A stretch of 64,000 bases of DNA, taken from NCBI GenBank assembly GCA_017506865.1, contig JAFCMP010000157.1, positions 310,001 through 374,000 on the forward strand, written 5' to 3'. Source of the DNA: Tribonema minus (Eukaryota; Sar; Xanthophyceae; Tribonematales; Tribonemataceae). Every line of letters begins with the position of its first letter. Position 1 is the first letter of the stretch. Below are positions 1,499 through 62,547 of this stretch, piece after piece. A model generated the notes under the pieces. It saw only the letters and a program-made list of their open reading frames with translations, searched no databases and was not told the DNA's origin. Position numbers and translations under genes: made by a program.

Positions 1499-4400
1499 AG
1501 AACGCCCAGTCGCAGTCGGCGCGCCTCCCTCACCTCTGACGTGCTGGCTGGGAGGGACGCTAGAGACGAGAGCGCGTCCACCACCAGCGCTGCCGACAGC
1601 CACCTAGAGGTGCGTGCGTGCGCCAGCCTCGCCTCTGCCCATTGATAGTATTTGATACCTTGCAACAAGTGTTGCAGGCGACTGCAATGCTGGTGTGGTA
1701 CAGCTTGCCTCTGTATCGAGGAAAGGTAAACCGCTATCCTTTCCTCCCTGGCAATGGCGCAGTAAGCATTGTCTCATCAACTGTTTGAATTGCTGCGCTG
1801 TGCAGCGTGCAACGCCATAACTTCCAGAAGCAATTGCACTTGTTGAGCACAGCACAGACGCAATCGCTGTTGACTACTCAGATGCTGACCCGCCCAAATT
1901 TTTAGTAGAGCCTCCACTAATACAAAATGCTATTGATGATTTGGAACTATCAACTTCAACAAGCTGAAATGAGCCCTATATAACCAGCAGTGGAGGATGA
2001 GCCCGCAGCTGCAGTATGCAGAGGTGGCAATTGTAAACTAGGAGATATGCTGAATAGAGTGACTTTGTTGTTCTCAATGGTGAGCAGAGACGCATGAAAA
2101 CCAGTGTTGTGTTGGATACACATTGCTTTCTTGAGAAACATGGCGCAGTCCCACCAATGCAGCACATAAACGCAGTGCTTTGGATATGGCACTGCCAGCA
2201 GGACAACACACACACGCCCGCACTTGGGAGTCTTTGAGTGCACTTTGAGCTGCGGGATGCATCTGCAGTAACTTTTAATAGTGCTTCTGTGGTAAGTTCA
2301 ACAGTGACTGCCCTCTGGTGATGCACGCGCTCACAGAGCGCATCACGACGACGATGTTAAGCCTTTTGAAGACTTGCTTTCTGCAGCATACGTGTAGCAA
2401 GAGAGCACACGTGCACCTGAACCTCACAGTCTTCGAGTAAATCGCGAGCTGCGCAAGGCATCTTCGATCAGACTTTGTACAATAAACACCCAGCAGTGAC
2501 TGCAGTGATCTGGCGGTGCACGCACTCACAGAGTACATTATGAAGACTTGTGGCTGCAGCACTCTGACTCCGACTCATGCGCTCGCACGGCATCCTGCTG
2601 CCCTAGCCCTAACCCTGACCTTAACCCTTACCCAAATGCTGATCTACTGCAGACCCATGAGTTGGATGCGCTGGGCCAGTGCCTAGGCGACATGCGGCGC
2701 AACAGCCGCTGGCGCCCTTCCGTGCCCGACATGTCGACCATGGTGAGTGAGTAGACGAGTAAGCAGGTGAGTGACTAAATCAAGAGTCACCACTGCCTTC
2801 GAGTGCCACTGCTGGCGCCCTTCCGTGCCCGACATGTCGACCATGGTGAGTGAGGAGATGAGTAAGTAAGTAGGTGAGTGAGTACAGAGTGAGTCATCGC
2901 TGCCTGTGAGTGACACTGGCACATCTTTTGTCACAGTGGACATGTCGACCACGGAGAATGAGTGGATGACTCAGGTTGAGTAAGCAAGTGAGTGAGTAAA
3001 CAAAAGTCATCACTGCTTTCAGGCACAACCGCATGCGGCCTTCTGTGCCTGACGTGGCATCTGTGTACGCAGAAGAGTAAGTAAGGGAGTGAGTACAAAA
3101 TGAGTTAGTCACTGCCGGCAAGCTCAATTGCTAGCGCGCTGCTGTGCATGACTTGCCACTCATGGTGAGTGAGTAAAATAAGTGGTGAGTGAGTGAGTAG
3201 ATGGAGAGTCATCAGAGTGCATTCACGAGTGCTTAAGGCAGACACTACACCACCAATAATTAAGAGAAGGCAAGCAAGTGAGCAGCACGGCGTGAAATGG
3301 GAAAACGTCAACTAAAACGGGAAAACTTCAACTTAAGAGCATAGCGCAGCTACGCGGTAACCTCTTTTCAAACGTATTCTTCAAAGTGTTCAATTATATT
3401 TCTCTTACATGAGGCTTCCGATCATTCAGTCTGCCAGGCAATCACCAGCACAAACATGGGCCTTCTGGGTGCAACCTGCAGCTCGATAGTGCACTAGAGG
3501 AGATTGCTGGTAGTTGTGGGTGTGCGCATCTAGGCAGGAGGCACGGGGATTACGATTACGGCGGTGCATTTTTTAGGGGGGGTATGCTATGTGGCAACGT
3601 CATCTAGAAGTGTTCGGCAATGCGCTTTGAGATGTTTTCAAGGGGCGCACAAGACATGTAGATTCTGTTTGCAAACTGGACATCCACCATCTGGGCTTTT
3701 GCGCACCATCAGGCGAGAAATCAATAAAAGTACATATGCAGTTAGTACCGGCATTTGAGCAAAACTGCATGAGTCTTCAATGCCAACCCCATCCTTTTCC
3801 TGCGCGAATGCGCGGTCAATTGAATTTGAGCACTGACTCTCCCAAACCGGGCGCCAGCACCTCGAGCCTCTACCAAACGCGGCCATCAGTTATGAAAAAA
3901 ACATATATACTCTGATGTAATGGCGTACTCCTTGCACGGTATGCTACCCATGGCGGAGTTCAGAGGGGGTGGTCGATGATAGCGGGGGGAGACAGGCCAT
4001 CCGATGCCATTTGGCAATGTGTAGAAGTGACCATCAGTGCTCATTGAGACACTTCCAAGTCGTCACGAGATATGCACGATACCCTGGTCTGTAGCAAGCT
4101 GGACATCCACCGTCTGGGCTTTTCTGCGCCCTTAGCATTCGAGAAATGTACATATAGGGTCAGCACTAGTGCACGCTGGCTGCAATGACCAAATGTCAGT
4201 TCTGTTTGCACAACTGCTGATCCAACACCCAATGTCCTTGCGCAGAACCCGCCGACCATTCTGGAGCGCGATCCCGAGAACGTTCTCGGACCGTCCCTGC
4301 GCGTCACGGGCGAGATCCACTTTGAGCGCCTGCTGCGCATAGACGGCAGCTTCAAGGTGCGCGCCGTGGGCTGCGTGTGTACTATGTGTGTACTATGCGT

Positions 4401-7400
4401 GTACTTTCTTTCTGTGCATCATGTCGTTTACAAACAGGTATGCTTTCACTGAGCTCGTGCATACATGGGCACCTGTGGCCATTATAGTGCTATCTACGGG
4501 CGGGGCTCAAACAGGGCCTCCTCTGCCGCTGTGTACCACGTGTGTACTACATGTTGACTGCATTTGTACTCACTGGCAAGGTTTGAGACCGTCTGCAATT
4601 GTGCCGTGCACCAGCAGCAGCATCATCATCGGCACCAATCACTCAATCCCTCACTTACTCAATGACCCGCTATATGACTCGCAGAGTGTGCTGAAAAAGG
4701 CAGCGGCAGCATTATCATCGGCGCCAATCACTCAATTACTCGATGACTTACTCTACTCTATGACTCGCAGGGCGTGCTCAAAGGCAGCGGCAGCATCATC
4801 ATCGGCGCCACAGGCGACGTCACCGCCGACCTTGTAGACCTGGATGAGGTCTATATTGAGGGCTCGCTCACTGGGGACATTGTCAACGCAAGCATGGTGC
4901 AGGTGAACTTGAAGTTGAAGTGCGCCAGTACCTCTTGCTGTGTGTGGTGATGTGTATGGTGATGTTGGAAAACAAAATTTGGTGACCGTCCGCCTTGCAG
5001 ATCTTGATGAGATAGATCTATATCGGCTACTTGAAGCGTATTATCGAGGGCTCGCTCACTGGAGAAATGGTCAATGCCAGCATGGTTCGCGTATCTCATG
5101 TCCTCTGTCCGCGACTTCTTCTCACCAGTTGCTGGAACTCATAAAACAAAACAAAAAATTTGAGTCGCCAAAAACTGAAATCTTTAGGTTGTTGGTAAAA
5201 TTTCACAACCACGCATTTGTTTGCGTCAGTTGATCATGAATGTTTTGTTTTATGAATAGTTCATTTGCACCCATGTCCAATACTGCCAATCTGGTAGACC
5301 TTGACGAGATGTGCCTTGAGGGCTCGCTCACCGGGGACATTGTTTTTTAATTGAAATGCAAGCATGGTTGAGGTGAACTTGAAGCGTACCTGTTTCACTG
5401 TGTGTTATTCTGCCATGGTGATATTGAACAGCAAGAAAAGGTGACCGTTCGCCTTGCAGACCTTGGAGACATAGATCCATATCGACTACTTCAAGTAGAA
5501 AGTAGTATCGAGGGCACGCTCACTGGGGGCATTGCCAACGCAAGCATGGTCCACGTGAACCTGAAGGGCACCGTTGCGCTGTGTGTGCACCGGCACGGTG
5601 GTGTTCAGAGAGAACGTCACCATTGACCTTGTAGGCCTTGATGCGATGTACGAAGTACAATCAATAGTTTTGCTTATGCCTGCATACCCCCCTTGCATCC
5701 GGGGCCACCCTAACCCTAAACCTAACCCTAACCCTAATCCTAACCCTAACCCTAACCCTAACCCTTGCTTCCGGGGCGGCGCCGTCGTCAACGGCAGCAT
5801 CCGCTGCGCCTCGCTTATAAATACTCAACCAAGCCATACACCAGCCCATGAGGCCCTCACTGGAATATCCGTGTGACTCCTCATGGCATACTACCTCACA
5901 CATTGAGGTATCCTCATTAACCATAGAAGTATATAAAACACTTTTATTACGAATACTTACATACCCTTGCATCACACGCACAGGTCCGCGGCGCCGCCGT
6001 CGTGAACGGCAACATCCGCTGCGCCTCACTCGCCCTGGACCCCGGAGTCCACCTCTCCGGCGGCAACGTCTCCATCTCCCCGGGCCAGGTCCGCTCGCAC
6101 TCCGCCGCCGCCGCCGCAGCACGCTCCGCCCCCCTCCCAGCCCCCTCTTCAGCCCCCCTCAGGGCTCGCGCAGCCTCCCCCCGCGTAGCTGGCCTTGCCA
6201 TCGCTGTCGAGGCCCCCAACTCAGAGCCTGCAACGGGTGCGGCGGCTGCTGCTGCTGCTGCCGTCAGCGGCCGCAGCGGCGGCGGCGGCAGCAGGGGCGG
6301 CGGCGGCGGCGGCGGCGGCGCGGCGGCGCCGAGGGCGCGCGATCAGTCCCCGGGGCCGCCTGTCGGGGGGCTGCGAGCGCCGTCCCCCAGGTGCTTGTTA
6401 GGCTTCTTGTTGAATCCAGTTTCGGAAGTGGTCCAGCCACGTAGCGTGTGCGGCCACTGTGATGGCACAGCTGCTTGAGTGGCACTTGGTGTGGCTTCGC
6501 TTGAAGTAAGGGCGCGACAAAGCCCAGAAAGGTTGATGCCAATCTTGCCGCCAATCCCAGTCCCCGGGGCCGCCTGCCGGGGGGGTGCGAGCGCCTTCCC
6601 CCAGTGCTTATTAGGCTACTTGTTGAATCCTGTTTGTGAAATGTAGTTTTCGATGTGCGCTCGGATAGAGTCGATGAACTGCATGAGGCTGCGACTTTGC
6701 ATATTTGCTGCTGCTGCGCACGCTCGCTAAGGTGTCCTCCTGACGCGCTTTTGCGCATTGGGTGATGATTGGTCTGTGATGGGCACGGCTGTTGGCAGGG
6801 TTGATGTTGAAGCACAACTTGAAGTTGAAAATAACTTGCTCCCCCGGCGTGCCAGCCCATATGCTGCTCGCAGCCCTCTACTGTCAAACTTTCATTGTGC
6901 TGGTGTAGGCTGGAACATGCAGGCCATAAGAGCAATTCGCTGCATAGCTTTTGTTCTTTTCATGCTTGTTCTTGTTCGGAACACCACGTGGTCAAATGTA
7001 CGCTTGCAACAAGAGGAGTCCACATCTTGTCACATGATGGTATCTGTTGCAGAATGAGGCTCGCACCTGCAGCCGTGAATCATATGGAGCGATTGGCTTA
7101 GTGTTGGAGTTACAGCCGTGGAGTGCGTGCTGACTAGTGCACGGTGCCTTGCGCAGGCACGCGAAGTAACTGGTGTGGTATTATGCATCAAACTCATGAC
7201 ATACCCCCCCCCTGCCCGCCCGCCCCCCCCCCTCTCCACTTGCAGCGGACCGGGTGCGGATCGAATGCCCCCTTCCCCCCTCTCCTCCCTCTCCAACGAC
7301 GAGAACTGGGACTGGGAAGCGGAGGCGGCGCAGCAGCACGAGCGCAAGAGCAGCGCTCAGCGCGATGCCCAACTTCAACATCAACCTCAACACCAGCGCC

Positions 7401-10400
7401 GGCAGAGCGCCAGTGACTTTGAGGCGCTCCTTTCGGACAGCGAGGACTTCAACTCCGACAGCAGCCAGGTGCGCGCGGGCTGGTACGTATGTATGCTCGT
7501 GCAGGTGCTTTACCTACCTACCCTTCACGTCCCATGTGAGTACTTGTTATAAAGAGGCCCTCCTTTCGGACAGCGAGGACTTCAACTCCGACAGCACCCA
7601 GGTGCGCGCGCACTGGTACGTATGTATGCTCGTGCAGGCGCTATACCTACGTACCCATGCAATTTATTTCATAGAGAGGAACTTCTGTCGGACAGCGAGG
7701 ACTTTGACTTTTCAACTCCGACGGCAGACAGGTGCGCGTGCGTTGGTACTTGTGAAGGCGCTATACTTACCTCCCCTCCTCACTTAAAGTTCATCATATA
7801 GAAGCCTTCCTTTTGGACAGTGAGAACTTCAACTCGGACAGCAGCCAGGTGCGCGCGCGCTGGTACGTATGTATGCTTGTAAAGACGATATACTTCTACC
7901 TACCTACCCTGCTCACGGTGCCAATCTAAACTTTCGGTACATAGGTTCGAAACGTGTGTCACTGTCAAGTCCTGTCCAGTCTTTTCGATTGCATGCGCAA
8001 TCCGGCCTCATTTGGGCCTTTACCACTAATGTCCACAAGGACCTGCACAACATGGGCAACTCATCTGTGACAATGAGGTGAGCTGCTTCAAGCACTGCAA
8101 TTTTGTCAGTACGATGTTTGATGTTGCAATGTGCATTGGGTCAGTCACGGGACGCGCTCGGTACCGTAGACAAAACAACGGCAGCACAGCTGAGTACAAA
8201 CGCAAGGGGGGGATCTCGAGATGCCATTTGGCGGCGGCGGCGTTCGAGTGGTTGTCACTGAGACACTCACACGGCGTGTAGATTCCGTACAGCAAGCTTA
8301 GATACCATTCATCTGGGCTTTTCCGCGCCCTGAGTGAGAATGAATAAACAGTACAAACGCAAGGTTGACAAAAGGTGGGTCACCCCTACACAATCGACAA
8401 CAGATTGATTACTAGCTACAGTCCCAACATCAATTGAAGTTGGCGTGGCGTTGGCCCAGCCAGTGACGTATTTCCTGGTGGAGGCGACCACATATGCCTG
8501 GAATGTTGGGTACTTGCATATGTTGGGTACTTGCATACTAGGGGTGGCATCCCAAAGCAGCTCTGCCCCAGTTTGATCTGCATTTGCTGCCTTGACGTGT
8601 TCAGATACAGATCAGTGTTCAAATGCAGATCAAGCATCTGCTACCTTGGCGCCTATGCGGATCAAGCATGCGATACCTTGACGTCTTCAAATGCAGATCA
8701 AGCTCGGCCAAAGCTCCAGTGGGATACCACCCGAGTACTCGACTTTCCGGGCATACTTCTATGCGGATCCCTTGACCAAGAAATACATCACTGGCCGGGC
8801 CAACGCCCACGCCAACGTTGATTGATGCTGGAGAAGATTGTTTTTGATTTCTGGCCATTTGCCATTACACGTAGATGTAATCATCATGATACGCTTGCCC
8901 GCGCGTGCGACTACAGCCAATTCTGTGGTCTTGAACCTCACGACTTGGCCGCACTCGTCGGGTGTGCGCATTGCCTCCGACGTTTTTGTGGTGAGCGTCT
9001 TCCGACGCGATCATCCTCCTCTGCGTCATATATCCTAGTGGGCTAGTGCCATTGAAGGTGCGCCCTTTATGTACTTATAAGCTTGTATTTATGAAGGCCA
9101 AAGGAGGCCGGGTTGCCTATGCAATCAAAAGGATTGCTTCAACGCAGCAGCCTAGTCTGTACTGCGCCCTAGGAGCTTGGATACCGACGCTGCCACACTC
9201 CGTGTACACTGTGCAAGCATGTGGCCGTTGCTGCTCTCCCCTTTCAGACAGCCCGCACTTCAACTGCAACAGCAGCCAGGTGTGTGCGCGTGCGCTGGCG
9301 CATGCTTGGGAGATATCCCAGGGGATTAGGGTTAGGGTTTAGTTAGAGTTAGGGTTAGGGTTAGGGTTAGGGTTAGGGTTAGGGTTAGCAAAGCGTGCAC
9401 AAGCTCAATGGGAGCATACGCGTCGTAAATGATGTGGTGCAGAATAGCTCAAGGGTTCCCACTCCTCAAGCGGAATTGAATAAAGAACTTCGAGGTATGT
9501 ATGCTTGTGAACGCACTATACCTACCCTGTTGCTGGTAAGCGAACACAAGACTCTCACGCTATGTTTTTTCATAGCTTACGCGGCAGCATCAACTTAATT
9601 AACACAGATAGTGTATATCGTGTTTTCATTCTCTCTACATGCTGCGAACGACGCATCTCAACATCAACGCCTGTTCACTTCTCACTTCAAAATGTGGTGC
9701 ATTGAAGATAGTTGTTATGCCCTCTCCACATGCATGTATACATTCTCTTTACATGACTTTATACAGATACATACGTACATACATACACCATGTGCACCAG
9801 GATGGCGACGGCGCATGGGTACCGGAGGCGGCCGCTCTGAGCGCTGCTGCAACGGGCGCCGGCACCGCGGAGCCCGCCGCCGACGGCCGCTCACTGGGCA
9901 TTCGCTGGTCATCAGGGCGGCAGCGCTCATCCGAGACGCCAACTTCATCGGCCAAGGGGGAGCGCGGCAGCAGCGGCGGCGTCTCGAGGTGCGTCACTCC
10001 TTGCCCTTTGCACTCGCAGTTGCTCGTGAGTCACACTTGAAGTAGCTCGCGGGGCGTCGCTGGTCATCAGGGCGGCAGCGCTCATCTGAGACGCCAACGT
10101 CATCCGCAAAGGGCGAGCGCGGCAGCAGCGGCGTTTCGAGGTGCGTCACTCCTTGCATTTCACACTTGGGGCCACTCGCGTTTCTCACTTGAAGTAGCCC
10201 GTGGGGCATAGTTGGGGCGCAGCGCTCATCCAAGACGCCCACGTCATCGGCCAAAGGGGAGCGCGGCAGCAACAGCGGCGTCTTGAGGTGCGTCACTTCT
10301 TAAATTTTGCACTCAAAGTTGTGATTGAGTTGTTCAAAAGCATCCGCTGGTCATCAGGATGACAGCGCTCATCTGAAACGCCATCGTCATCGGCAAAGGG

Positions 10401-13705: not shown

Positions 13706-13738
13706 GAAACCGTCATGCTAGCGACGGTTTCGTTTTTT
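13706..13738 (+). other. Perfect 9-bp hairpin followed by T6
   Basis: gaaaccgtc (13706-13714) pairs with gacggtttc (13723-13731) around an 8-nt loop, followed at once by g and six t. The form fits the 3' end of a small structured RNA ending at a Pol III-type T run. No known RNA family was recognised upstream, so the function is open. Confidence 0.35.
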
Positions 13739-14620: not shown

Positions 14621-14759
14621 TGGGCTCACTTGCTGAGAATGGACCTGGACGTTATTTAAACAACACAGGACGGGAAGGGGGGGGGGGGGAGGGAATGCAC
14701 CTGCCAATGATGAAATTAGTGAGCCTAACCCTCATCGCAACCCTTTGCACCTGAAGTGA

Positions 14760-15439: not shown

Positions 15440-18400
15440 TCATTTCCGCGGCCGAACTGCGTGCCAGCCGCGCTGGGGTCCTCTGGGGGGCCCCCTAGCT
15501 GGGGGTCTTGGGGGTTTTACCACAGGGGGAGGGCCCTTGTGTTCTATCAACTGCTCCAGCCGTGTTTTATCGACGAACGTGCCTTTTTCCTGGTCCAGCA
15601 GCGTGAACATGTTGTCTTCCTTGATCTTGAGCGCAAAGTACTGGCCCTCGCCGGCCTGCAGGGGTGGTCACAGCGGTTACAATTCATGTCGTGATTCACG
15701 TGCGTATGCATGCGTGACGCAACGTAAACACCGCCGCTGATGATATCGACGAGCACGCCTTTGACCTGGTTATGGAATGTGAATGTGTTGTCATCCTTGA
15801 CCTTCAGCGCGAAGTACTGGCCCTCGCCGGCCTGCGAGGGTGGGCAGAGTTTGATATTCAGTATTCATGTATGCGCATTCATATGCACACTCGGTAAATA
15901 TTTTTTTTGGCAGATTTCGATATTCAGTATTCATGTATGCGCATTCATGTGCACACTCTGTAAACAATTGTTGTTGATGATATTCATGGGTGTGTCTTTT
16001 TCCTGGTCCAGTAGTGTGTGAACATGTTGTCCTCCTTGGCCTGGAGCGCAAAGTACTGGCCCTTGCCGGCCTGCGAGGGCGGGCAGAGTTGAAGTATTCA
16101 GTGTTCATGTATGCGCATTCATGTGCACACTCAGCAAACATTGTTGATGATATTCATGACTGTGTCTTTTTCCAGGACCAGTGGCGTGAACGTATTGTCC
16201 TCCTTGGCCTTCAGCGCAAAGTAGTGGCCCTTGTCGTTCTGTGAGGCCGGGCAGAGTTTAATATTCAGTATTCATGAATGCGCATTCATATGCACACTCA
16301 GTGTGTAGACATTTTTGATGATATTGATGAGTGTGTCTTTTTCCTGGTCCAGCAGCGTGAACATGTTGTCCTCCTTGACCTTCAGCGCAAAGTAGTGGCC
16401 CTTGTCAGCCTGTGAGGATGGGCAGAGGAGTAATTGAGCACAGTGTTGTTTTTTCATGTATGTGCATACATGTGCAGATTCAGTATATTGTTGATGATGT
16501 ACCGATGAGTGTTTTGGCCTGATCAAGGAGTATGAACATGTTGTCGCGTTTTGCCTTCAGGGCGAAGAAGCGGCCATTGTCAATAGCGAGGATGGGCACA
16601 GACACCATGATTCATGCCATAACTTATGTGCATACGCGGGCACGATTGAGACACCAACAGTGCTGATGATGATATCGATGAGCATGCTCCGGGAGTGTGA
16701 ACACAATGTCATCTTTTGCCTTCAACGCAAAGAAGGGGCAAGCGCACGCAGAGAGAGTTCATGGTCTCAATGCTCATGGTTTATGTAAGCGCAGACACGT
16801 GAATCATCAATGCATCATTGGTGATGTGATTGAAGAGTGTGCCTTCTGCTCAACTTGAGGTACATTTCTTGCGTTCCACTTGTGGCTGTGGAAATGCCAT
16901 GCTGTAGGCGTGTCGCCTTGCTTTCTCTCTTGGACGTAGCATGCAAAGCTTGCACGCCACGCCCCGCCCCCCACATCACCCCCAACAAAGCACCCGCAAG
17001 CGACAGTCCCCCACATACTAGCAGGGATACCCAACAAAGCTACAAGACTCTCCCCCCACAGACAGACCCGTCTTAGGGCCACCCAGCTTGATGTACTTCC
17101 AAACCCCATGATATGATGAGCGCACAATGAAGTGATATGGTTCAAGGCATTTCTGTATGTGTAAATGTGTGTGTACAGCATCATCACCGTGATGCCACAA
17201 AAATGTAGTATAAAAACCAGAGATGCCCCGTACTGCCATCATCGCACCAGTCGCGCGTAGCGCAAGAAAAATTTTAACCGGTACCGGTACCAGTACTCAA
17301 TAACTGGTACCAGCAGCTACCCGTACAGTTTAACTGGTGCGCTGTGACAACCGGTACCAGTATACTGGTGAAATCGGTAAAAACTGGTCTGACCAGTTTT
17401 CACCTGTGGTACCAGTTTTTTACTAGTGATGCCAGGGCTTTTCTCATATGCAAAGCATACAGAGTATACCGTGTGATCAGTACATACAACTACAAAGGCT
17501 TCAGGAATAATGCTCGTTAGGAGCTCGAGGATTCTAGGTTATGCAGCCGAATGGACCCAAGTGCATAGTGCGCAGCAAAGCCTTACCCACAGCATACTAG
17601 CGCAGTATTTGCTCCTGTAAGTGACACTCAAAGTGCACCCGTCGATGCAAAGGCTGTCAGCAACACGTGTGCAGCATGCAGCCAGCAAAAGGATGGGCAG
17701 CATGCTCATATATCATTCTGCCTGCTGCCACCTGTTTCGGCTTTTGCTCTGCAATTGGCACCCTTGCACTTGTGGATCAGCAAACAACCTCTGTCATATC
17801 TGTAGACCAGGTTTTCATGTCTACGCAGCTGAAGCTTGAGCCTTTCGTTGGCTGCGACAGCGACAGCGCATAAGAGCGGAAACAATCCGATCCGGAGTTG
17901 CGTTCCTGTAAATGAATGCACCACTTCCCACGTCGGTTGATGGATGCTTATGCTTTACATCCAACCTGCTATCTCAGCCTGCAGAAGCTGCTTGTGCATT
18001 CAGCGACATCAAACAGTCGCGCATCCATCAATCGGAGACTGCCACTCTGTGTTCGATTTTTGCGCCACATGGACCGCTTGCATGCCATCACTAGCCGAAC
18101 CCATATGTCAACAGCAGCATCAGTAGGTCGACTCACGACCATATCTGCCAGTATTCACCGTTTATTACACCTGTCGTGTCGCGCTGAACTAACTTCAAGG
18201 CACGAAAAGAATAAACTCGCTGAACGGTCTATGTACTTGCATTTTAACTGGTGGCGCCGGTCATCAGCTACGGCATCGGTACGTGTTTACGGGTTGCCTC
18301 ACGCGGCCAGTTACCCGTACCGGTTAGCGAGCGGCAACCAGTTACCGGTTAAAACTGGTACAAAAACTGGTACGGGTACCGGTGCTACCAGTTAACGGGG

Positions 18401-40400: not shown

Positions 40401-41505
40401 CCACAGCCCCATTCGCCTCGGCCTGCTTCTTATACTCCTCCATCTGCCTAACATTAACATGACTTCAATGTTGAACTTCCACGGCCCTAGTCGCCTTGAA
40501 GTTCCGCTTCTGAGGTCAGGGACTTAGCCAGCAAACGCTGATTCGGGCAACTGACCATCACGAAGATTATTTTTGGCAACTGATCATCGTGAAGAAAAGA
40601 TGTTCGCTGTTTCAGCAGAGTTTGCACTACTTCAACATTGAACTTCATGCGTTCGCATACATACATACCTGGTGACCTTCCCGTCAGCCACGGCCCTTTT
40701 CGCCTCAACCTGCTTCATGTACTCCTCCGCCTTGTTCTTGTTGAACATATTACTTCTTCAACATTGAACTTCCTGCGTGTGCGTACATACCTACCTGGTC
40801 ACCTTCTCGTCGGCTACGGCCCTGTTGGCCTCGACCTGCTTCTTGTCTACCCAACGTTACTTTAACATTGAACTCTATGACCTTTTAAATCGTTTCCATT
40901 ACTTCAACATTGAACTTCATGCACATACCTACATACATACCCTGGTGACCTTCTTGTCGGCCACGGCCCTGTTGGCCTCAACCTGCTTCTTGTCTACCCA
41001 AAGTTACTTTAACATTGAACTCTATGACCTTTTGAATCGTTTCCATTACTTCAACATTGAACTTCATGCACATACATACCTGGTCACCTTTTTGTCCGCC
41101 ATGGCCCTATTGGCCTCGACCTGCTTCTTGTCTACCAAACGTTACTTTAACATTGAACTCTATGACTTTTTGAATCGTTTCCCTTACTTCAACAGTGCAC
41201 TTCATACGTGTACATACATACATACATACCTGTGACCTTCTCGTCGGCCACGGCCCTGTTGGCCTCGACCTGCTTCTTGTCTACCAAACATTACTTTTAA
41301 AGATTGAACTCTATGACCTTTTGAATCGTTTCCCTTACTCCAACATTGAACTTCATATGCGTACATACATACATACCTGGTCACCTTCTCGTCGGCCACA
41401 GCCCTATTGGCCTCCACCTGCTTCTTGTACTCCTCCATCTTGTTCTTGTTGCGCCGCCGTGCCAGGATCTCCTGCTGGTCCCTGAAGGCAGCGTCCATGT
41501 CATCC
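37497..41505 (-). CDS. Uncharacterised protein with charged coiled-coil start and Lys-rich tail (three 3' exons; 5' end missing)
   Basis: Exons in transcript order: 41505-41377, 39278-39059 and 37706-37497 (TGA). Phases agree (split Arg codon at the first junction, phase 0 at the second). They encode about 185 residues plus stop. The first exon is strongly charged and probably helical (RDDMDAAFRDQQEILARRRN, then KMEEYKKQVEANRAVADEKV). The second reads WAWQRRSDGKDPLTDWQKMR, then a Gly-rich FGVGGSFGVGGKWDEGGRFD and LRLPYVDQ. The last begins GYVDDSADVMGKFFGGGKKK, continues as an Ala/Pro/Lys-rich linker and ends KKKGWFW. I do not recognise the family. The hydrophobic end after a basic linker could be a membrane or partner contact, which is inference. 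No membrane span is visible. Further 5' exons should lie beyond 41505. Confidence 0.72.
37835..38275 (-). repeat. Copies of the start of terminal exon 37497-37706
   Basis: On the minus strand GYVDDSADVMGKFF-type coding behind an acceptor recurs at about 37835-37895, 38025-38085 and 38205-38270. The copies are close enough to keep the frame for about 20 codons. Spacers share gtacatgcatgcgtgt-type sequence. Confidence 0.85.
38505..38910 (-). repeat. Two copies of the end of exon 39059-39278
   Basis: ctggtcgacgtacggcagcc-type donor edges with the Gly-rich coding before them recur at about 38520-38620 and 38778-38890. Spacers repeat agtggctgcacagcgcgcgg. Confidence 0.85.
39425..39735 (-). repeat. 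Copies of the start of exon 39059-39278
   Basis: gctgccaggcccacctgatt, the reverse of the acceptor plus WAWQR coding, recurs at about 39447-39480, 39588-39622 and 39693-39725. Confidence 0.85.
40375..41285 (-). repeat. Copies of the donor edge of exon 41377-41505
   Basis: caccttctcgtcggccacgg followed by cctgttggcctcgacctgct (QVEANRAVADEKVT plus donor on the minus strand) recurs at about 40385-40450, 40675-40740, 40797-40850, 40945-41000, 41083-41135 and 41230-41282. Spacers of about 90 bp share gaatcgtttcccttacttca, so each period is about 145 bp over most of the array. Confidence 0.9.
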
Positions 41506-52122: not shown

Positions 52123-52153
<31 letters not shown>

Positions 52154-52979
52154 CCCCCTTGCGCGCCCGAGTTTGTTGCGCCTGGTTTGTTTAAGCATCG
52201 TCACCTCGAGCCTGCTCGTTCAGGCACAACACCACCCCCTTGGTATTTTATTCAGGCACTGCTGATGGCAATGACTGCTTTTGCACCAGAATAGATGGGG
52301 CATTTTGGAGGGAGGGTTTGTAAGGTGCCAGTGTGGCGGACACAGGCATGGAGCTGAGTTTCTGGTGTAGCTAGCGTTTTGTGCAAACATGAGTAGTGCC
52401 TGCACAGAGACTCTGACATGCTCGTATGGCGGTGGCTTATCCCGCTTTGAGCGTTCAGTGTTCGCTTGACCATTCCACTGGGTCAAGCCTAGCATGTGCG
52501 TCTCTGAGTAAATAATCACAAGCAGCGACAACAACACACAGCCCATGGGGGGAGAAGGGGGGGGGGGGGGGGTAGTTGACACCTTTGTGCCTGTAAATGC
52601 CACCTGTATGCCAGACTACGCCAATTGCACGTAGTATGCCCGCTGTGTCTTTGCTGTTCTGGAATGTGGTCTGTCGTTCAGATAGTCTCATACTATTCTG
52701 GTGTGTAGCTGGCGTTCGCAGAGTTCAACACTTCAAGTTGTGCTCAAAGGCAGTTGAGATTTAATTGCTCGCCCTTGCAAGCGTGACTTTGCAGTAGTCG
52801 CTGCTGTGTTATGGGCTGCAATGCTGTCGTTGTAACACAAGTGTGGTCGCTCGCCTTTATCAAGCAGCTTTGGGAAACAGCGCTAAGCAACTTCACCAAT
52901 AACAGAGGGCTTGTCACCGGCTTGAATTTGACGGATGATGACTCAGAAGATATCGCACAAGCCTCTTTGCTCTCGGTAA
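51712..52979. other. Spacer between tandem plus-strand genes; holds a copy of the preceding gene's stop region
   Basis: aaagccaagctgccggcagc through tggggctgagcttgtcccc (51765-51808) repeats the last codons and stop region at 51672-51720. C runs at about 51816-51832 and 52128-52150 and a G run near 52556 follow. No gene was found. Confidence 0.65.
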
Positions 52980-55900
52980 ATGGCGCACATGCGACCACTG
53001 CCCCTGGCGGCCTTGGCTCTGCTGGTGCTCTGCGCACGCAGAACAGCTGGTCTCGTCTCCAGCAGCACTGTGGGCGGTCGCACACGCACAGTGACCATGG
53101 CTACAGCAGCACCACCTTCGCCAGTTGACAGCTTCCTCGCGAACCTGGGCTTCGGCAAGGCTGCAAGCCCCAAGTCAGCGCAGTTCACTATTGCAGTGAC
53201 AGGGTCCAGCGGTCTCGTGGGATCAGCACTGACGAAGGTGAGATCACAGGCTTGCCAAATTCAACTGTTGAAAGTGCTAGGCGCAGTCTGTGCAATGTAC
53301 TTTGACTGCAATGTAGCTGGGCATGCTTCTACTATGTGAGCCCCGCACCAATGCAGCAGCACCTTTCAGTTATGTTCAGCACAGTTTCCTATTGTTCGCG
53401 AGTGACCAGCTTGACGTCATTGTGAGTGCGTGAGCAGCCTCGTTGCATGCAACCACAGGGCCACAGTGCTGCTTGTGTAGCAAATCTTGGAGTGGTTCAT
53501 ACCTAGTGAGTCTTTTTGGCTCCGGGCCTGCCACATGGCTGCTGCAGTGCCATATGCAGATTACACTCCTGCAACGGGCATCCCTGCGGGTGAAAGGAAA
53601 CGAATCAAACGTCGTAGAGCTCTAGGTTACAAGGTGTGGTTGGCCAAATTGAATGCCTTCCACCAATAACCGTGATCGCCGCTGCTGCAGCAATTGGTCA
53701 CGAGTACTTCCTGGTCAGATGAAGCTTCAAAACCTATGTGAACTCACATCTGAACCGGGAGAGCTCACTACCACGTTGTTGTATCGCTGCATCGGTTTTG
53801 GACCCTCGTCTCACCACCATGCACGGCATTTGCATCGCATGTTGCTCCTCGCTGGCTGTGTACGTGACCACCGCTCTGTTTGCCAATCTACGCAGTGTCT
53901 ACGTTGCATGTTGTTTACAGCCAATTAGGTATGTAAATGCAGAGCATATTTGGTCTCTGCTAACAACTGTCTAGTGAGCAATACCTTGGTTTCACAGCGT
54001 GTGTGGAGCATCTGTCCATGACATGCAATATGTGCAAGTGGCAGCGGCTCCCCACTTCCAACACGTTTGCATTCATCCGCAGCTGCAAATACCTTGTACC
54101 TCCTGTTGAAATATGCGCACAGTGCGCAAAGCAGGCCAAATGATTCGCTTCAAGCTTGCCACCAGAGTCCCGGGATAAAGTGTTCCAATGCTGATCGATG
54201 GCCATTAATGAATGCATGGCCGAACGGCATCATCTTAATTTGTTCCTCAGTTGAACTTGAAGAACACGCTGATGACTGTGCATCGCATCTACACTTGCCC
54301 GCTGAAGGCACTGGAGGGAGCTCAGCTGGGGGGGAAGCCCGTTAAAACATTGCGGTGAGTCCCCCAATACCATACATACCCATGCATGCCTGCACTTGAA
54401 GTAAACATTTCTAATGATCAACTCAATATCTAGTGCTGTTACGATTCAACTCACTCATGATGAGCTGCAAACTTAAAAGCCTTATTACAATTACTCACTA
54501 GTGCTTTTACAATTCAACTCGCTCATGATGAGCTACAAACTTGAAAGCCTAACCAAGTAGAGGATATCGTGATGTTATTAGATGTTCGTGTCTTTGCGCC
54601 TGTTGGTTTGGTTTGGCAGGCCACGAGTTAGAGTCGCTAATCCCTTGATGCATTTCCTGCTTCATTTACTTGTTTGCATGTGCTGGCATTGGTTTTCAAA
54701 AGTTTTGACATGGGTTTTTTCCACACACCTTTGTTTTTGGGTGGTTCAACATTGACTGCTGCAAGTGGTGGCGTGCCTAGCCGGGGAACCAGTTTCCTCG
54801 TACTTCAAGTATCTGCAGCGCTCAGGAAATGTTTCAATAATGGAGTCAATCTGGGGGCCCAAGCACATCCGGCTTTCACGCCTCAAGCAGCCAGCAGCAC
54901 CTCTGCAGCTATACTATATTCAAACCTCAACTTGAGATGGAATTTACAAATTCAACAATACATTCAGAGTTGTGCAGCGCAAACTCTGCATCGCCCGGCA
55001 CCCCAGGGTTACAGTGAGGACTGAGTAGGGTTAGCCAACACAGTCCTGTCAGACCAAACAGTCAGGTTAGACAAAACAGTCAGGGTTAGACACAACAGTC
55101 AGGGTCAGACAAAACAGCTGTGCTACTTCGCCTGTACACCATGATGTGTGCTTGTGGCGCCGTACTGACGCGTCTCTCGCTTTTGTTTGAATCCTTCAGC
55201 TGCAGTTTACGCTGTGACACGAGCATGCTGAGGGTCAGGCTATGGACAAACCCCTTACCCAACCCTAAACCTTTGGCTTCCACTTGCTAACCCTAACCCT
55301 AAGCTGCCCCCTGAAGTTCTAATATGTAACGCTATTGGTTTCGTCCCACCGGTCTCCGAACACCACAGCGCAGGCCCCTGCAATTGTAACAAAATGCGCA
55401 GCCACGCATTTCATCACTTGTCACAGCCGCGCATTTCCCGGTCTGTAACTGTAAAACACCGCACAGGCTAGGACAGTTTCATCATGTGTAACCGCAACGC
55501 ACCGTGCGCGCAGGCTTGTGTGGTTCCATCATGCGTTACTGCGAAACACTGCGCGTGCTTGTGCGGGTTTCAACCTGTGTAACTGAATCACACCTCGAAG
55601 CACTTAGTCATCTGTAACCGTTCTGTAACTGTAAACGATCTGGCAGGCTAGTGCGGCGCGCGGCCAGGTCGGACGACGAGGTGGCGTGGGACCCTGCGAC
55701 TGGCGAAGTTGAGGTGGAGAAGCTGGTGCGTCACACTTGAAGTTATATGAAGACGGCGCATCTCGCTTCGACTTGAAGCATTTCCGATACAAAAATTGTC
55801 GCCATGTCCACTAGGCTGCAAAAAAACACTATCTAGCTCAAGTTTTGCAGGCCTTACCTGCTGTGCACATGATATGCTGGGAGCCAGGCCAGAATGAACA

Positions 55901-58900
55901 CCACGTTTTTGGGTGTCGTGTACGCGCACGGTCGAGTTGGCGGCTGGCCTTGCGAGGCTGGCGAGTCACATTCAATTGTTGAACTTCCACGGCTGCTGCG
56001 ACGGTCGTGCTGAGGGCAGTGTTGTTGCGTCAAGGTACGATGCAGACTTGAGCTTTGCAGCACGTGGCTTGCCAAGCCGTCTGCTGAAGCTGCAGCGCTG
56101 GGCATCATCAGTCATGACATCCAAGTACATACATACATACCCCGAATTGTACCCTTACCTCTAGCACTAAGCACTTCATCTGGTGTGCTCGATACTGCTC
56201 TGAAGCACCTGTTCTTTGTCACTTCTCAAAGTATATTCCGCCTGGGGCTGTGGAAGTGAACATTTCAAAGGTCCTTGTTGACGGACTTCTCATTACTCTA
56301 GGACGCAGCATGCACAGCTTCCACGTCTAAAAATGTCAGTTGAAGGCTGCAGATGCTGCGCTAACCTGTTGCCGCGGCAGTGAAAGCAGTGCTCATCAGC
56401 ATTGACGAGGGGAGAGTCACTTGTTGCACTCGGCACACAAGGCCGTCGATGCACTGCCTTGAGCTTTGTCAACTGTCATTAATCCACGTTGCGGAACTCT
56501 GCAGTGCTGCTGCCTGAAGATGGAGACTCACTGATTGCGCTGGGCGCAGGAAGGCATTGTGTCGCTCTGGCGCACAGATCTGTGACCGCTGCAGTTGAGG
56601 CTGATGGAGAGTCGCATACTTGAGCTTTTCAAAAGTATTGGAAAGTCACTAACGTGAACTTGTCGCAGGAAGGCATTGATGCGCTGGTGCACCTGGCAGG
56701 GGAGGGCGAGGCGTGCCTCATGGAGAGTCGCTTACTTGAACTTGTCGATACTTATGGGCAGCCACTTGCCTGAACTTGTAGCAGGAAGGTAGCGACGCGC
56801 TGGTGCATTCAGCGGGCGCGGACGTGGCTGATGGAGAGTCGCTTATTTGGACTTTCTAAAAGTCTTGGAGCGTCGCTTACTTGAACTTGTCGCAGGAAGG
56901 CATCGACGCACTGGTGCACCTGGCAGGCCAGGGCGTAGCTGATAAAGAGTCACATTCTTGAAGGCTTCTAACATGGAGAGACTGATGGAGAGTCACCAAC
57001 TTGAACTTGGCGCAGGAGGGCATCGACGCGCTGGTGCACCTGGCGGGCGAGGGAGTGGCGTCTGGGTCTGGGCCGCTGGCCATCCTTGGCAGGTATGTGT
57101 GTACGGAACTTTACATCATCTTTCATCAACATTGTGGTGAACGCTTGTGTGCGTTAATTCGCAGCATCCTTGATGTGCATTCCGGTGCTCTGAATATAGA
57201 TATAATTATTCCCTGTCGTTCTGCATGTTCCATCAACATAAAATCAGAGCCGGGATTTAGCAGAGGGGACCCCTTCACAAGCGCCGGTCTCTCCCCTGCA
57301 ATCACTGAGGTGGAACGACACAGAAGGCTAGCATCATGGACAGCCTCAGCCAGTGCATTAACACGGCGCAGCGGCAAGGCAGAAGCTCAATGTGATGCCC
57401 GGCTTCCATACATGCCCTGAATTGTTTCTAAACCGGTGCGAGTTGTGCGCATTTCAGGTGGGACAAGCCTAAGAGGCCCAGCATCATGGACAGCCGCGCT
57501 GCATATACTGCCGTACAACACACAATCTCATCACACATGCACAGTGACAGTGCAGCCGAGCAATCATCTTCCTGAGCCTCAGGCACGACTGAGCTTGCCC
57601 ATGTTGCACTGTGCACTGTTGCACTGTGCACAAAGGTGGGACGAGGCCAAAAAGGCCAGCATCTTGGACAGCAGCGTCAAGGCGACCGCAGAGCAGCCGA
57701 GGGCCTCGTAAACTACTTCATGCGCACAGACCATGTTTTACGCTGCTGACATTGCCATACAGTCTGATGAACCACTACAGCCAGAAGAATTGATTGACAC
57801 AAATTCCTGCGCTTGCTGTGCTCTCTGTAGGTGGGACGAGGCTAAGAAGACTAGCATCGTGGGCAGCCGCGTAAAGGGCACCGAATGACAACAAGCAGGA
57901 GGGGTTCTTGTTGATCCATCCATGCGCACAGAACATTCATTCGCACTGCCTGATATTGCCAACCATGATGCATGTCTTGGACTGTTTACACACCAATGCG
58001 CGCTGTGCACGTTTCAAACAGGTGGAATGAGGCCAAGAAGGCTAGCATCATGGACAGCCGCGTAAAGGGCACCGCAGTCATCGCCAAGGCCATAAGCCAG
58101 ATGAAGCGGCCTCCGAAGACGTTCATCTGCTCCAGCGGTGTGGGGTACTATGGCTACACGGCGGGGGACCAGGTACGTATGTATACGCATCAACAGCAGC
58201 GCTGTTGAAGTATTCAGTTTGTCGAAGTTACATCACCAGCATATGTGGCGGTACTATGGCTACAAGTCACTTCACCAGCATGCGTGGGGGTACTATGGCT
58301 ACACGGCGGGGGACCAGGTATGAAAGGTATACACATCAGCACGCCATTCAAGTATTGATTGTTGTTGAACTTACTGCTCCAGCGAAGTGGGGCACTTAAG
58401 ATACACGGCGGGGGACCAGGTATGTATGTACATGCGGCATCAGCACTGTTGAAGTGTTGAATATTGTTGAAGTTACTGCTTCAGCGGCGTGGGGCACTAA
58501 TGGCTATACGGCGGGGGACCAGGTATGTATGTAGGTATGCGCACACTGCATCAGCAGCAGTGTGAAGCATTGAATGTGTTCAAGTTACTGACAAGCTGGA
58601 CAGCCAATGAACCGGATTTCAAATGAAAAGCACTCCAGTGGTCCAGATTACTATGGTCACACTGGGGAACCAGGTGTGCAGCTTACACTGTGCGCACGTC
58701 TGCAGCATCACCAGCACTGTTGGATGGCTTGTTGTTAAAGTACATGGTGTTTTCACGCCGTGAAGATTCAGAGAATTCTCCTAGACATTGAAGTAGAAAA
58801 TCCAACTGCCCCAGCGGCGTTGGCCCAGTTTACCATCTGTGACGGCTACACAGCGGGGAGCAAGTGTGCGCACAGCACCACAATTAAACTCAACAATATT

Positions 58901-61900
58901 GTTGAAGTTGTTGTAAACTGAAGTAAACGATCATTTGGTCCAGCGGCGTGGGTTACTCATACAGTTGAGAGACCAGCTTTGTGCATGCTGCATCAGCGCT
59001 GTTGAAGTATTGCAAGCATGAACATGAGAGATACGCAAATATGTGCTCAAACCCCAGGAGCATGCTTCAGCAGTGATGTTGAATACACTGAAGTTTGCAT
59101 AGCTGTCACGCTATGACGTGCAGCCTGCTTACAGTCAATGGCACCTTCACTCTCACCACAACCTGATGTGATTGTTGCATTTGCTAATCTTCAACTCTGC
59201 AGGAGTTTGATGAATCTGGGCCTAAGGGGGGCGGCTTCCTGGCGGAAGTGGTGGAACAGTGGGAGGCAGAAGCACTCAAGGTACATCATATTCATGAATT
59301 CATTCTTATGGGCGCATCACTCAAGGTCTGCTCGGTGCGTTCTGAGTGCATGGATCAGGCATTCGATTGTAGCCGAATCTCCTGAGGTACATTCGTTACT
59401 CAGGGTCAGTGCGCTCATGCATTCAATCACGAGGGTCAGTGAGTTTATGCATTCGACTGTGTGAACACATTCACTCAAGTCACGTACTTCCATGAATTCA
59501 TTTGTGAGAACTGATGAGGGAGTCCATGCTGATCTGTGCATTGCTTGTACGATCTTGTCCGTGTGATTGGTGGCTGGGCCACTATCAGTGCACGGCAGGA
59601 TTTTTTGCCGCTGCTTCGCCGAGATGCATCGAGTCAGTGGCCTCACTTTCGACGATGTCCTGTGTTGTAGGAGCAGCAGTCAGGGACAAACTTTTGTGAT
59701 GCACAATGTGTCATTACATCTTTATTTGCTGTACTACTTTATACTTCACTATTCACACAGGAAGTATCAATGTTCAAAAGTGTCATACTTGTATTTGGTT
59801 GCTGTGCAGGTGAAAGGCCCGCGCGTGGTATGCCTGAGGACAGGCGTTGTCCTTGACCCCAAGGGCGGCGCTTTGGGCAAGCTGCTGCCCCTCTTCAAGC
59901 TTGCCGCCGGTGGCAACCTGGGCTCCGGCCAACAATACTTCAGGTACATGCAACCTACTGACGGGTAGCGTTAGGGGGATGGCATTAAGGGTAGGGTGAG
60001 GTCACCGAGGTGGTGTCCACTTAGGGTTAGGGTTAGGTTACACGGCGTCTCAGGTTTGGTGTCAATCATAGGTGCAACGAGCAGGGCACGCGAGCTGCTG
60101 CCGCTGCTCAGGCTGGCCGGCGGCAGCAACCTTGGCTCGGGCCAGCAGTACTTGAGGTATACCATACGTCAAGGTACCGTAGGGTAAGAGTGAGCTCGAA
60201 AGCTGAGGTTTTAGCAGTACCTCACCTTGTGCCCTTAACTATGGTATGGAACGGGCAATTTACCTACGCAAGCTGCTGCCACTCTTCGGGTGGCCACTGG
60301 CAGCGATCTGGGCTCAGGCCAACAGTACTACAGGTACAGTACAACATACTTGGGATTACGATAGGAGTGAAGTTTTTGACGGTAGTCCGGATACCACGCC
60401 ACCAGAAGGGACGGGTAGCTTCTGTGGCTAGGGTTTGCAGAAGGCAAGGTATGATATGCAAGGTGGTGCCGCTGTACAATTTTACTCGGGTTTAGGTTTG
60501 AAGGCTGACGTTGAATGGCATCTCAGATAGCATGCCAGGTAAGTAGAGGGATAAACGTTGTTGTGTTATTTGCGAACAGCAGGATTTTTCACGCGGTTGT
60601 GCTGTGCTTTTTGAAGGCTCGTCGCCCCGGGTCCGGGCCAGCATGGTATGTAGGTATAGTCTGGCAGCCCTCGATCTTCATCAATCATTAGCGTTAACTG
60701 TCTGTCTCATGATCATGAATTCATCATCGTGAATTCTGCTGCAGCTGGGTGTCCCTGCACGACCTCCTGAGCATCATCACCTATTCATCGCTGCTGCGCC
60801 ATCGCCATCAATCATCACACTTCAATGATCATGAATGTATCGTCGTGAATTCTGCTGCCGCAGCTGGGTATCCCTGCGCGACCTCCTGAGCATCATCACA
60901 TTCATCGCGGCTGCCCCAGGCGGCGCACCGCTGCGGGGGCCCATCAACGCCTGCGCGCCCGCACCCTGCACCAACGCCCAATTCACAAGGTCAGTCATTA
61001 CTGACGCATGACAACCAAGCAGTTGCCAATATGTTGTTGATAATGCGGTTGGGTTTGGGTTAGGGTTAGGGTTAGGGCTGGTCAATGCCTGCGTACCTGC
61101 AGCCTGCGCCAACGCGGAAGTCACAAGGGGTCGGTCGCAGTGCAGTTCTTTCTTTCTGCTCACAGAAGCAATGCTGACGCAGCCGCAGATCTTCAGCTTG
61201 ATGCTGAGGCTTGTAGTGTTGTGGGGGTGCGCGTGTGTGCGCGCTCTCTGCGCCAACGCGCTACTCACAGGGTCAGTCAAGCATAGCGCTACTGAAAAAG
61301 TAACAACATACCAGTTGCCAGTCCCCTACATGACTGGGATTGTGTGTTGGGCTGGAGTTAGGCTCGGGGTTAGGGTTAGGGCTAGGGCTAGGGTAGAGTT
61401 CGGGCTAGGGCTAGGGTTAGCCCTTACCGCGACATTCACGTTTTTTTTAGCACTGCAGCATGGTCGAGTTTTGCGTTCCGCTATCCTCCTGGTCCTTGTG
61501 AGCACTGTAGCGCACCGTGTCGCAGTTTTACATTCTCAGCCTCAGAGCTTGCCCTCTGACCACTGCTGTGTACCGGGCTGCCCCAACCCTAATCTCAACC
61601 CATGTCCCTTCTGAGCTCTGCAGCTTTAAAACCACTTCATTTTTTGAGCGCTGCTGCGTACCGGGCTGGCGCGACGGTTTCACACCGCGCCATGGCCACT
61701 GCCTTGACCCCAAGTTCGAACCCCAACTTCAAATCACATCCCGCTGAGCACTTGCTGCTCCCTCAACCTTATTCTTAACCTATGTTCCCCCTTCTGAGCA
61801 CTGCAGCGCGCTCGGCGCGGCGGTTTCGCGCCCCGCAATTGTCCCGCTACCTGCGGCCGTCGGCTCCGTGCTGTTCGGGCAGATGGGCGAGGAGATGCTG

Positions 61901-62547
61901 TTTGGGGGACAGAAGGTACGTGGCACGTCTCAATCCACATGTAGGAGCGTCACTTGTGCTGTGGAGATAAAACTTCAGTTTGCTTTGATGCGACTGTTAC
62001 AAGAGATGCTGTTTGGGGGACAGAAGGTGCGTGGCATGCCTCAACCGATTTGCAAGAGAGTCGCCTGTGCAGAGAAGCGTGCGTTGCTGTTTTTTTTTGT
62101 AGAGATGCTGTGCTGTGATTTTCCAAGATATGCTGTGTTGGGGGACAGAAGGTGCGTGGCATGTCTCACTGCACGTGTTGAAGCGTCACTTGTGCAGTGA
62201 AGTGTGTGCTGCTGTGATTTTAAAGTAGTGCATCAGCCCTCGTCACCGATTCTTGGTGTGCACACTGATGAACTTCTGTTTTAAAAAGCGGTCCTTGGCT
62301 GCAAATCGCTGGTGCACGGTCAAGTTGGCTCACAATGCTGCCTTTTGCGGTGGCTTTCGCAGACTGCTCGCTCTGCAGGGACTCCTCTATGGTCTGTTAA
62401 TGCCGCTGTGTGTATGGTCATGGTTGACCTTCATGTTGAACTTCATGTTCATTTTGAATTTCACAGGTGCTGCCCAAGAAGCTCGAGCGCAGCGGCTTCC
62501 AGTTCCAGGACACGGACATTGGGGAGTGCCTGAAGGCCATTATCTGA
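52980..62547 (+). CDS. SDR39U1: SDR39U1/GC1-type NAD(P)-dependent epimerase-like protein (ten exons, complete)
   Basis: Exons: 52980-53237, 54251-54354, 55647-55725, 57016-57092, 58022-58172, 59203-59280, 59810-59943, 60864-60989, 61807-61915 and 62467-62547 (TGA). All junctions keep phase; 1197 nt give 398 residues plus stop. Residues 1-24 (MAHMRPLPLAALALLVLCAR and on) are a signal peptide, followed by a Ser/Thr/Arg-rich stretch like a bipartite plastid leader. The Rossmann motif is TGSSGLVGSA. Other family marks are TLRLVRR, WDPATGEVEV, DALVHLAGE, WNEAKKASIMDSRVKGT, SSGVGYYGYTAGDQ, GFLAEVVEQWE, RVVCLRTGVVLDPKGGALGK and SWVSLRDLL. A C-terminal DUF1731-like end follows (GQMGEEMLFGGQKVLPKKLE, then RSGFQF). 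The family (TIGR01777; E. coli YfcH, human SDR39U1) includes Arabidopsis GC1/SulA, needed for plastid division. A plastid inner-envelope or stromal role is likely; the substrate is unknown. Confidence 0.93.
53238..54250. other. Intron 1 of the SDR39U1-type gene; nothing else recognised
   Basis: About 1 kb without exon-edge copies that could be recognised. This makes it one of the few introns here that lack a clear array. Confidence 0.5.
56540..57015 (+). repeat. Copies of the start of exon 57016-57092
   Basis: tcgcaggaaggcattgatgc followed by gctggtgcacctggcagg recurs at about 56665-56720, 56783-56830 and 56890-56940, and more weakly at about 56545. Each is preceded by gagagtcgcttacttgaact-like sequence. 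The acceptor cag is kept in all of them. Confidence 0.88.
57450..57895 (+). repeat. Three copies of the start of exon 58022-58172
   Basis: gtgggacgaggccaaaaagg, then ccagcatc.tggacagc, recurs at about 57458-57500, 57633-57705 and 57830-57885. The copies at 57633 and 57830 extend well into the VKGT part. The acceptor ag is present before the first and third. Confidence 0.88.
58173..58990 (+). repeat. Six or more copies of the end of exon 58022-58172
   Basis: ggctacacggcgggggacca followed by ggta (YGYTAGDQ plus donor) recurs at about 58250-58322, 58375-58425, 58485-58530, 58640-58680, 58810-58870 and 58945-58980. The first three keep a near-perfect donor (ccaggtatg). Spacers have gcatcagcactgttgaagt units. 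Confidence 0.9.
60060..60660 (+). repeat. Copies of the end of exon 59810-59943
   Basis: The exon segment GKLLPLFKLAAGGNLGSGQQ plus donor recurs at about 60080-60162, 60268-60335 and, as a fragment, 60620-60655. The first copy codes for an almost unchanged peptide (LLPLLRLAGGSNLGSGQQYL). Confidence 0.9.
60735..60790 (+). repeat. Copy of the start of exon 60864-60989
   Basis: attctgctgcagctgggtgt, then ccctgcacgacctcctgagc, repeats the exon opening 120 bp upstream with its acceptor. The preceding atcatgaattcatcatcgtg is duplicated too. The copy reads WVSLHDLLSIIT and then runs out of the exon frame. Confidence 0.9.
61075..61280 (+). repeat. Two copies of the end of exon 60864-60989
   Basis: gtcaatgcctgcgtacctgc, then agcctgcgccaacgcg (about 61080-61130), and tctgcgccaacgcgctactc, then acagggtcagtca (about 61240-61278), restate NACAPAPCTNAQFT plus donor. 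Confidence 0.8.
61360..61425 (+). repeat. Interstitial telomere-like tract, degenerate
   Basis: gggttagggttagggctagg and variants extend about 60 bp. A shorter purer tract is at 61055-61078. Both are inside the same intron. Confidence 0.85.
61500..61720 (+). repeat. Copies of the start of exon 61807-61915
   Basis: gagcactgtagcgcaccgtg (61500), gaccactgctgtgtaccggg (61558) and gagcgctgctgcgtaccggg with gcgcgacggtttcacaccgc (61647-61690) are diverged forms of gagcactgcagcgcgctcgg with cgcggcggtttcgcgccccg at the real acceptor. Confidence 0.7.
61990..62160 (+). repeat. Two copies of the end of exon 61807-61915
   Basis: gagatgctgtttgggggaca plus gaaggtgcgtggcatg recurs at 62000-62042; a more decayed form is at about 62100-62165. 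The first copy is identical to the exon over more than 20 bases and keeps the donor. Confidence 0.92.

Follow-up and report, generated by a model that had tools for sequence, protein, structure and literature searches.

In Tribonema minus, introns have probably grown through a succession of short tandem duplications, in which the duplicated unit often spans a splice site. The sequence studied here is a 64-kb window (the whole stretch of DNA that was analysed, to which all coordinates below refer) of the public assembly of this yellow-green alga, a genome of 158 Mb in 554 contigs, and loci elsewhere in the same genome were included for comparison. Exons were defined via an annotated protein, via homologs or via Pfam matches, the CCT/Cpn60 family having been chosen by homology alone. 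Exon edges were resolved in two genes of the window, a TIGR01777-type epimerase gene and a PF20709-family gene, while the remaining arrays in the window are local repeats beside coding-like segments (Table 1). The support for this reading was observed directly and consists of the repeated units, their position, side and strand, their decay, and one near-identical array.

Copies of exon edges in adjacent introns

The exons of the epimerase gene follow from P0001, the annotated 'epimerase family protein' of Tribonema minus, which is 93% identical over 99% of the joined exons, and this protein makes the exon evidence independent of the repeats. When the exons were compared with the whole 64 kb, 18 non-self matches were found (E ≤ 0.05), and all 18 were plus-strand matches in the intron immediately next to the exon concerned, with parts of exon starts placed before the exon and parts of exon ends after it. 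This is the arrangement described in an earlier note on this DNA, and no copies of these exons were found elsewhere in the window at the same threshold. Comparison of the gene with itself gave 26 direct pairs and 0 inverted pairs. Copies were present at 7 of its 18 splice edges, and three of those derived from the end of exon 5 extend to the exon end and the donor site, their exon parts being 100%, 85% and 89% identical. The donor of exon 7 was taken 22 nucleotides (nt) upstream of the annotated one, as the homologs fit better there; the public model lengthens this exon by 22 nt (59943-59964) to a poor donor, and the added residues are absent from three homologs. Edge copies may mislead gene prediction. 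In the PF20709-family gene all four resolved edges have copies, and the first exon with homology support is likewise preceded by copies of its start. The homologs P0121, P0122 and P0124 hold the sequence of this gene once, colinear over the junctions.

Direct orientation is general. The window contains 119 direct-repeat rows, forming more than 30 clusters when counted by eye, where the earlier note had counted more than 20 arrays. Its local pairs are 117 direct versus 2 inverted, those in 20 random 10-kb loci of the genome are 146 direct versus 1 inverted, and a local repeat comparison in 12 genes gave 0 inverted pairs. The main edge count covers 43 resolved introns in 12 genes with 86 edges, of which 29 (17 donors and 12 acceptors) have copies; one of the copied acceptors, in locus L039, probably rests on a 76% match that begins 32 nt into the exon. 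No reverse-complement matches were found at the 86 edges searched. The copied edges are spread unevenly over the genes (permutation p = 0.003), and four of the 12, including L031 with 0 of 12 edges, have no copies at resolved edges. The claim of the earlier note that most exon edges in every gene are bordered by copies was therefore overstated, for the epimerase gene as for the whole set.

A second set comprises 65 matched copies in 39 introns, obtained with exon probes no longer than 200 nt. The exon part of these copies is 19-135 nt long and a whole exon was copied in none of the 65. On the donor side 34 of 39 copies stop no more than 5 nt from the exon end; on the acceptor side 25 of 26 start within 5 nt of the exon start. 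Repeat offsets are 79-264 nt in 46 of 57 well-aligned pairs and span 62-489 nt where the alignment covers more than 0.8 of the offset. Local duplicates account for 25% and 72% of intron bases in the two window genes tested and for 0-54% across ten CCT loci.

These CCT loci were taken from 56 matches to PF00118, which picked exons blind to the repeats. Their exon matches (E 1e-3) keep the strand of the exon and fall in the neighbouring non-coding stretch, on the side where the matched half of the exon lies, the sole exception being a palindromic self-match; at this threshold no exon copies were found at three of the ten loci (L031, L033 and L035). One myosin gene displays the same arrangement at three exons, one exon end not being resolved, and one additional match begins 32 nt within its exon. 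No protein-level copy is visible among the 96 matches of the PF00063 table, and DNA copies are present in the single myosin gene examined. Two pairs of kinesin matches (G000:C246:700950-701488 and G000:C511:561699-562092) have overlapping profile ranges, the smaller match lying just downstream of the larger, a pattern that would be expected from exon-end copies. In the 20 random loci local repeats hold a share of 0.135 of the non-coding bases that lie up to 100 nt from coding-like segments, 0.116, 0.092, 0.039 and 0.072 in successive further bins, and 0 beyond 2 kb. Edge arrays there number 22 of 57 versus 13 expected, a rough estimate given the uncertain exons, which were drawn from self-trained codon usage.

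Form of the duplications and decay of the copies

The event itself is most readily seen in locus L038, where tandem units follow an exon end and five sites matching ACCATGCAGGT are spaced at 149, 151, 151 and 148 nt. The intron parts of the first three are 97-99% identical and those of the distal ones 61-68%. This is a plain tandem duplication of a donor-straddling unit, with alike intron parts beside the exon. The acceptor at L038 was probably placed 12 nt off, and an array scored as abutting would then sit on the edge. In locus L036 there are five units of 161-166 nt, and compared with the first the 129-nt exon-side stretch is 88-90% identical and the 32-nt intron stretch 82-97%. Twelve simple young duplications, drawn from 79 pairs, have an alignment that is 0-4 nt longer than the offset, or 1 or 3 nt shorter, and the edge arrays were mostly too old for this set. 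The copying is local, direct and head to tail, as in short tandem duplication, be it by slippage, unequal exchange or nick or break repair; decay of the intron part hides this in many older arrays. Outside known exons, the window also holds a very young exact tandem duplication (46400-47266) with a 433-nt unit that is 98.8% identical.

Copy identity drops with distance from the exon (rho -0.38, p = 0.0016), which bears out the decay reported in the earlier note. Median intron length is 523, 816 and 1210 nt for introns with 0, 1 and 2 copied edges, respectively. In all six introns with copies of both edges, those of the exon end lie closer to the donor and those of the exon start closer to the acceptor. 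One may envisage that when a unit spans an exon end and its donor, splicing at the first donor would keep the protein unchanged and the copy would join the intron, and that when a unit spans an acceptor and an exon start, splicing at the last acceptor would have the same effect. The exon is under selection, so the copy nearest to it could duplicate again, and older copies would be displaced outward, decaying almost neutrally.

The copies largely decay in a roughly neutral manner. Compared site by site with the real edge, the copies show an identity of 0.88-0.89 at exon positions and of 0.70-0.76 at intron positions 6-18 nt from the junction, which is near a 2:1 divergence and fits a frozen exon with a free copy. 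Changes private to the copies are synonymous in 105 cases and not in 159 (0.40 synonymous versus 0.25-0.34 for random mutations), a mild synonymous excess that changes in the exon lineage can inflate. Of the 65 copies, 57 retain an intact splice dinucleotide (GT in 34 of 40, AG in 23 of 25), and these retentions of 0.85 and 0.92, compared with 0.79 and 0.78 predicted from the exon side, are near or slightly above expectation, indicating that copied splice sites are not purged.

The exon edge and rival explanations

The 43 introns contain 38 arrays, of which 29 take in an exon edge and a further 4 adjoin a splice site (33 of 38 together). Random shifting of the arrays predicts 11.7 edge arrays, which answers a check proposed in the earlier note: exon borders and other positions do not carry arrays equally often. 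The expectation rises to 16.6 or 19.7 when edge visibility is set two- or threefold. Even a uniform process would leave edge arrays, because a frozen exon keeps them visible longer and because an edge-straddling duplication is harmless; part of the excess over shifting stems from this longer visibility, which the earlier note had overlooked. A gene-level permutation, in which arrays at unrecognised exons are scored as interior, gave 36 of 71 edge arrays versus 17 expected. Pure chance was rejected as an explanation of the copies, given that exon matches are adjacent, on one strand and on the correct side, with no matches to reverse-complemented edges.

The same visibility effect is the basis of an alternative that we regard as unlikely, namely that tandem duplication is uniform and neutral, that events within exons are purged, and that edge arrays are just visible longer through their unmutated exon half. 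The substitution pattern does match a frozen exon with neutral copies, and none of the 12 simple young duplications lies over a listed coding segment (judged by eye; one, in L005, is at a locus without such a list). When uniform neutral duplication was simulated forward in time together with decay and deletion, also with constrained intron ends, and the outcome was scored like the real arrays, a fraction of 0.30-0.48 of arrays already fell on edges in the absence of any bias. The fraction seen is nevertheless 0.76 (p ≤ 3.5e-4), and in genes outside the window 18 of 25 arrays touch an edge (p 0.0005-0.013). Arrays with at least three repeat pairs likewise make up 13 of 29 by hand count versus 0.04-0.28 in the simulations. 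Splice-site regions thus seem to duplicate, or to retain duplicates, more than neighbouring intron, and an edge bias of about 1.6 to 2.5-fold (seen over expected) is likely but not proven.

Several observations weigh against enlargement of introns from duplicated splice-site units followed by neutral decay. If edge arrays are counted as three times as visible, the edge excess weakens for the 25 arrays that lie outside the window genes (p = 0.03), and for the CCT genes alone p is 0.007 and 0.04 at three- and fourfold visibility. A cruder control with interior 60-mers found a same-intron copy for 57 of 280 interior probes versus 28 of 86 edges (p = 0.028); this control is weak because interior probes land in the edge arrays that fill the introns. 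Genes differ strongly in their copied edges. An exon-start copy in L037 (182-284) has 16 synonymous changes to 1 other over 102 nt and does not look neutral. Several arrays have an exon part that is 95-100% identical beside flanking intron that is hard to align, which exceeds the 2:1 relation, and in 16 of 53 comparisons of an exon with its copy the flanks resemble each other no better than the best-matching tenth of unrelated flanks do. This gap between exon and intron identity may point to conversion of the copies by the exon, or else to faster decay of the intron.

Homogenisation of old tandem arrays by gene conversion from the exon, whereby exon parts would seem younger than intron parts, would account for such cases. 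Some copies in L036 and L032 have exon parts of 96-100% identity, and their 30-nt intron flanks reach 0.72-0.89 gapped and 0.30-0.73 ungapped. Copy-to-copy identity is, however, only moderately different between exon (0.834) and flank (0.763; unrelated flanks 0.62), and the units in L038 are near-identical with the intron included, so that we consider gene conversion a decidedly unlikely origin of the pattern. The L037 copy, the intact splice dinucleotides and the many arrays at or abutting splice sites would also agree with selection on the copies, if duplicated splice sites or exonic enhancers aid exon recognition in long introns and are kept for that reason. Yet GT and AG retention is close to that predicted from the exon side, and 75 of 91 copies have at least one amino-acid difference (hand count; four exons dropped for frame). 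Additional strong splice sites should moreover produce mis-splicing, and selection of this kind appears improbable. The occurrence of repeats in many introns recalls introner-like mobile elements or a scattered copying of exon pieces. The copies, however, match their own exon only (one gene, 64 kb) and only the adjacent stretch at the CCT loci, with 0 inverted pairs in 12 genes, which makes this origin highly improbable; within the window it was rejected, as the exons of one gene have no dispersed matches in 64 kb.

Short tandem duplication with units often straddling the splice site thus remains the preferred reading. The proposal of the earlier note that the expansion is genome-wide stands in part, since tandem duplication is found in window genes, in the CCT family and in one myosin gene, together with longer introns and a young array, but it does not extend to every gene. 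We put forward only tentatively, as a possibility with somewhat less than even chances, that a mutational process aimed at splice sites (e.g. breaks or nicks arising at exon-intron borders, where splicing coincides with transcription) keeps duplicating borders genome-wide and is a main builder of intron length here, and perhaps also in related brown algae whose introns are large.

Further features of the window and relation to known systems

Table 1. Genes and edge-associated repeat arrays located in the window
Feature	Position	Strand	Remarks
Direct-repeat cluster adjoining presumed exon end	2702..3213	+	Local repeats
Local copies around bactofilin-like exon (within 4762-4905)	4612..5566	+	Local repeats
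Presumed exon end and donor, tandem copies	7421..7917	+	Local repeats
Presumed exon start, tandem copies, 171-nt period	15568..16601	-	Local repeats
PF20709-family gene	37497..41505	-	Exons 41505-41377, 39278-39059, 37706-37497; Pfam match, colinear homologs
Exon 37706-37497 start, three copies upstream	37644..38432	-	Period ~189 nt
Exon 39278-39059 end, two copies	38446..39172	-	114 nt of exon
Exon 39278-39059 start, three short copies upstream	39252..39734	-	19-27 nt of exon
Exon 41505-41377 end, six tandem copies	40305..41451	-	TRF period 147; most with donor GT
TIGR01777-type epimerase gene	52989..62544	+	10 exons, 9 GT-AG introns; spliced alignment of P0001
Exon 4 start (57016), three tandem copies upstream	56599..57061	+	Period ~111-116 nt
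Exon 5 start (58022), four decayed copies upstream	57308..58074	+	One copy without first 14 nt
Exon 5 end (58172), copies downstream	58127..58590	+	Exon matches, self-comparison
Exon 7 end, two copies downstream	59877..60350	+	Exon matches, self-comparison
Exon 8 start (60864), one copy upstream	60709..60918	+	89% over 57 aligned positions
Exon 8 end, two copies downstream	60944..61279	+	One copy in self-comparison only
Exon 9 end, two copies downstream	61892..62221	+	Exon matches, self-comparison

The bactofilin-like exons (PF04519, 4240-4905) are present in a eukaryotic nuclear genome, and their Pfam scores are under the curated cut-off (E = 2.4e-05 for the exon within 4762-4905 and 0.026 for 4240-4371). 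A fragment resembling eukaryotic small-subunit ribosomal RNA (28839-29247; model positions 1220-1483, 76-78 bits) is apparently a decayed piece of ribosomal DNA. Telomere-like runs of TTAGGG/CCCTAA or similar are found in presumed introns or intergenic sequence at 5707-5765, 9326-9388, 11109-11140 and 61367-61420. A short dispersed repeat around CATCTGGGCTTTT, recognised by eye, has self-comparison pairs at 3671, 8305, 11608, 20097 and 29564, and a 517-codon open frame at 31733-33283 looks mobile-element-like by eye and has no Pfam match at E 1.

Whole-exon tandem duplication likewise duplicates coding sequence within a gene. The arrays of Tribonema minus differ in that no complete exon was copied in the second copy set. 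They also differ from microsatellites and minisatellites in their long offsets and in their placement on exon edges, and the view of the earlier note that ordinary microsatellite growth is inadequate is upheld on the same grounds.

Tandem genomic duplication is described as the one route of intron gain demonstrated in vivo, and gain by tandem duplication of an exon segment containing AGGT is reviewed in the same paper (PMC3443670), with cases from Drosophila (PMC2891723) and potato (PMC4974935). The likeness lies in a short tandem duplication within a gene that duplicates splice sites and leaves the protein unchanged. The AGGT route, as presented there, creates a new intron inside an exon, whereas the arrays of Tribonema minus enlarge existing introns from both edges. 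The order deduced for AGGT gain, with the start of the next exon at the intron beginning and the end of the previous exon at the intron end, was rejected, being opposite to the order in all six introns copied at both edges. Rogers and Bendich reported in 2025 (PMC11782384) that introns have direct repeats 4-30 bp long at their borders, and these are similar in being direct and near splice sites. As described there, these repeats concern a comparison of the two intron ends, whereas the copies in Tribonema minus are 19-135 nt long and lie beside their own edge. Staggered nicks or break repair yield local tandem and partly tandem duplications in a rice study (in PMC7407515), and a Pol alpha-primase route to local tandem copies has been described (PMC8355091). 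Duplications from nick or break repair, as characterised in these sources, are similarly local, often head to tail and tens to hundreds of nt long. To our knowledge, no splice-site preference is known for such duplications, and they have not been reported as a maker of introns. For comparison of intron size, autosomal introns of the brown alga Ectocarpus have a median of 524 bp (PMC12477816). A full-text literature search (titles and abstract openings, with subscription papers mostly outside it) found no description of edge-anchored arrays as a general feature.

Long introns are often credited to transposons, and here much intron sequence descends from exon edges. Each array keeps its frozen source alongside, and consequently the tempo, order and direction of duplication become directly readable. 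The tolerance of the splicing machinery for many intact decoy splice sites becomes testable in this organism.

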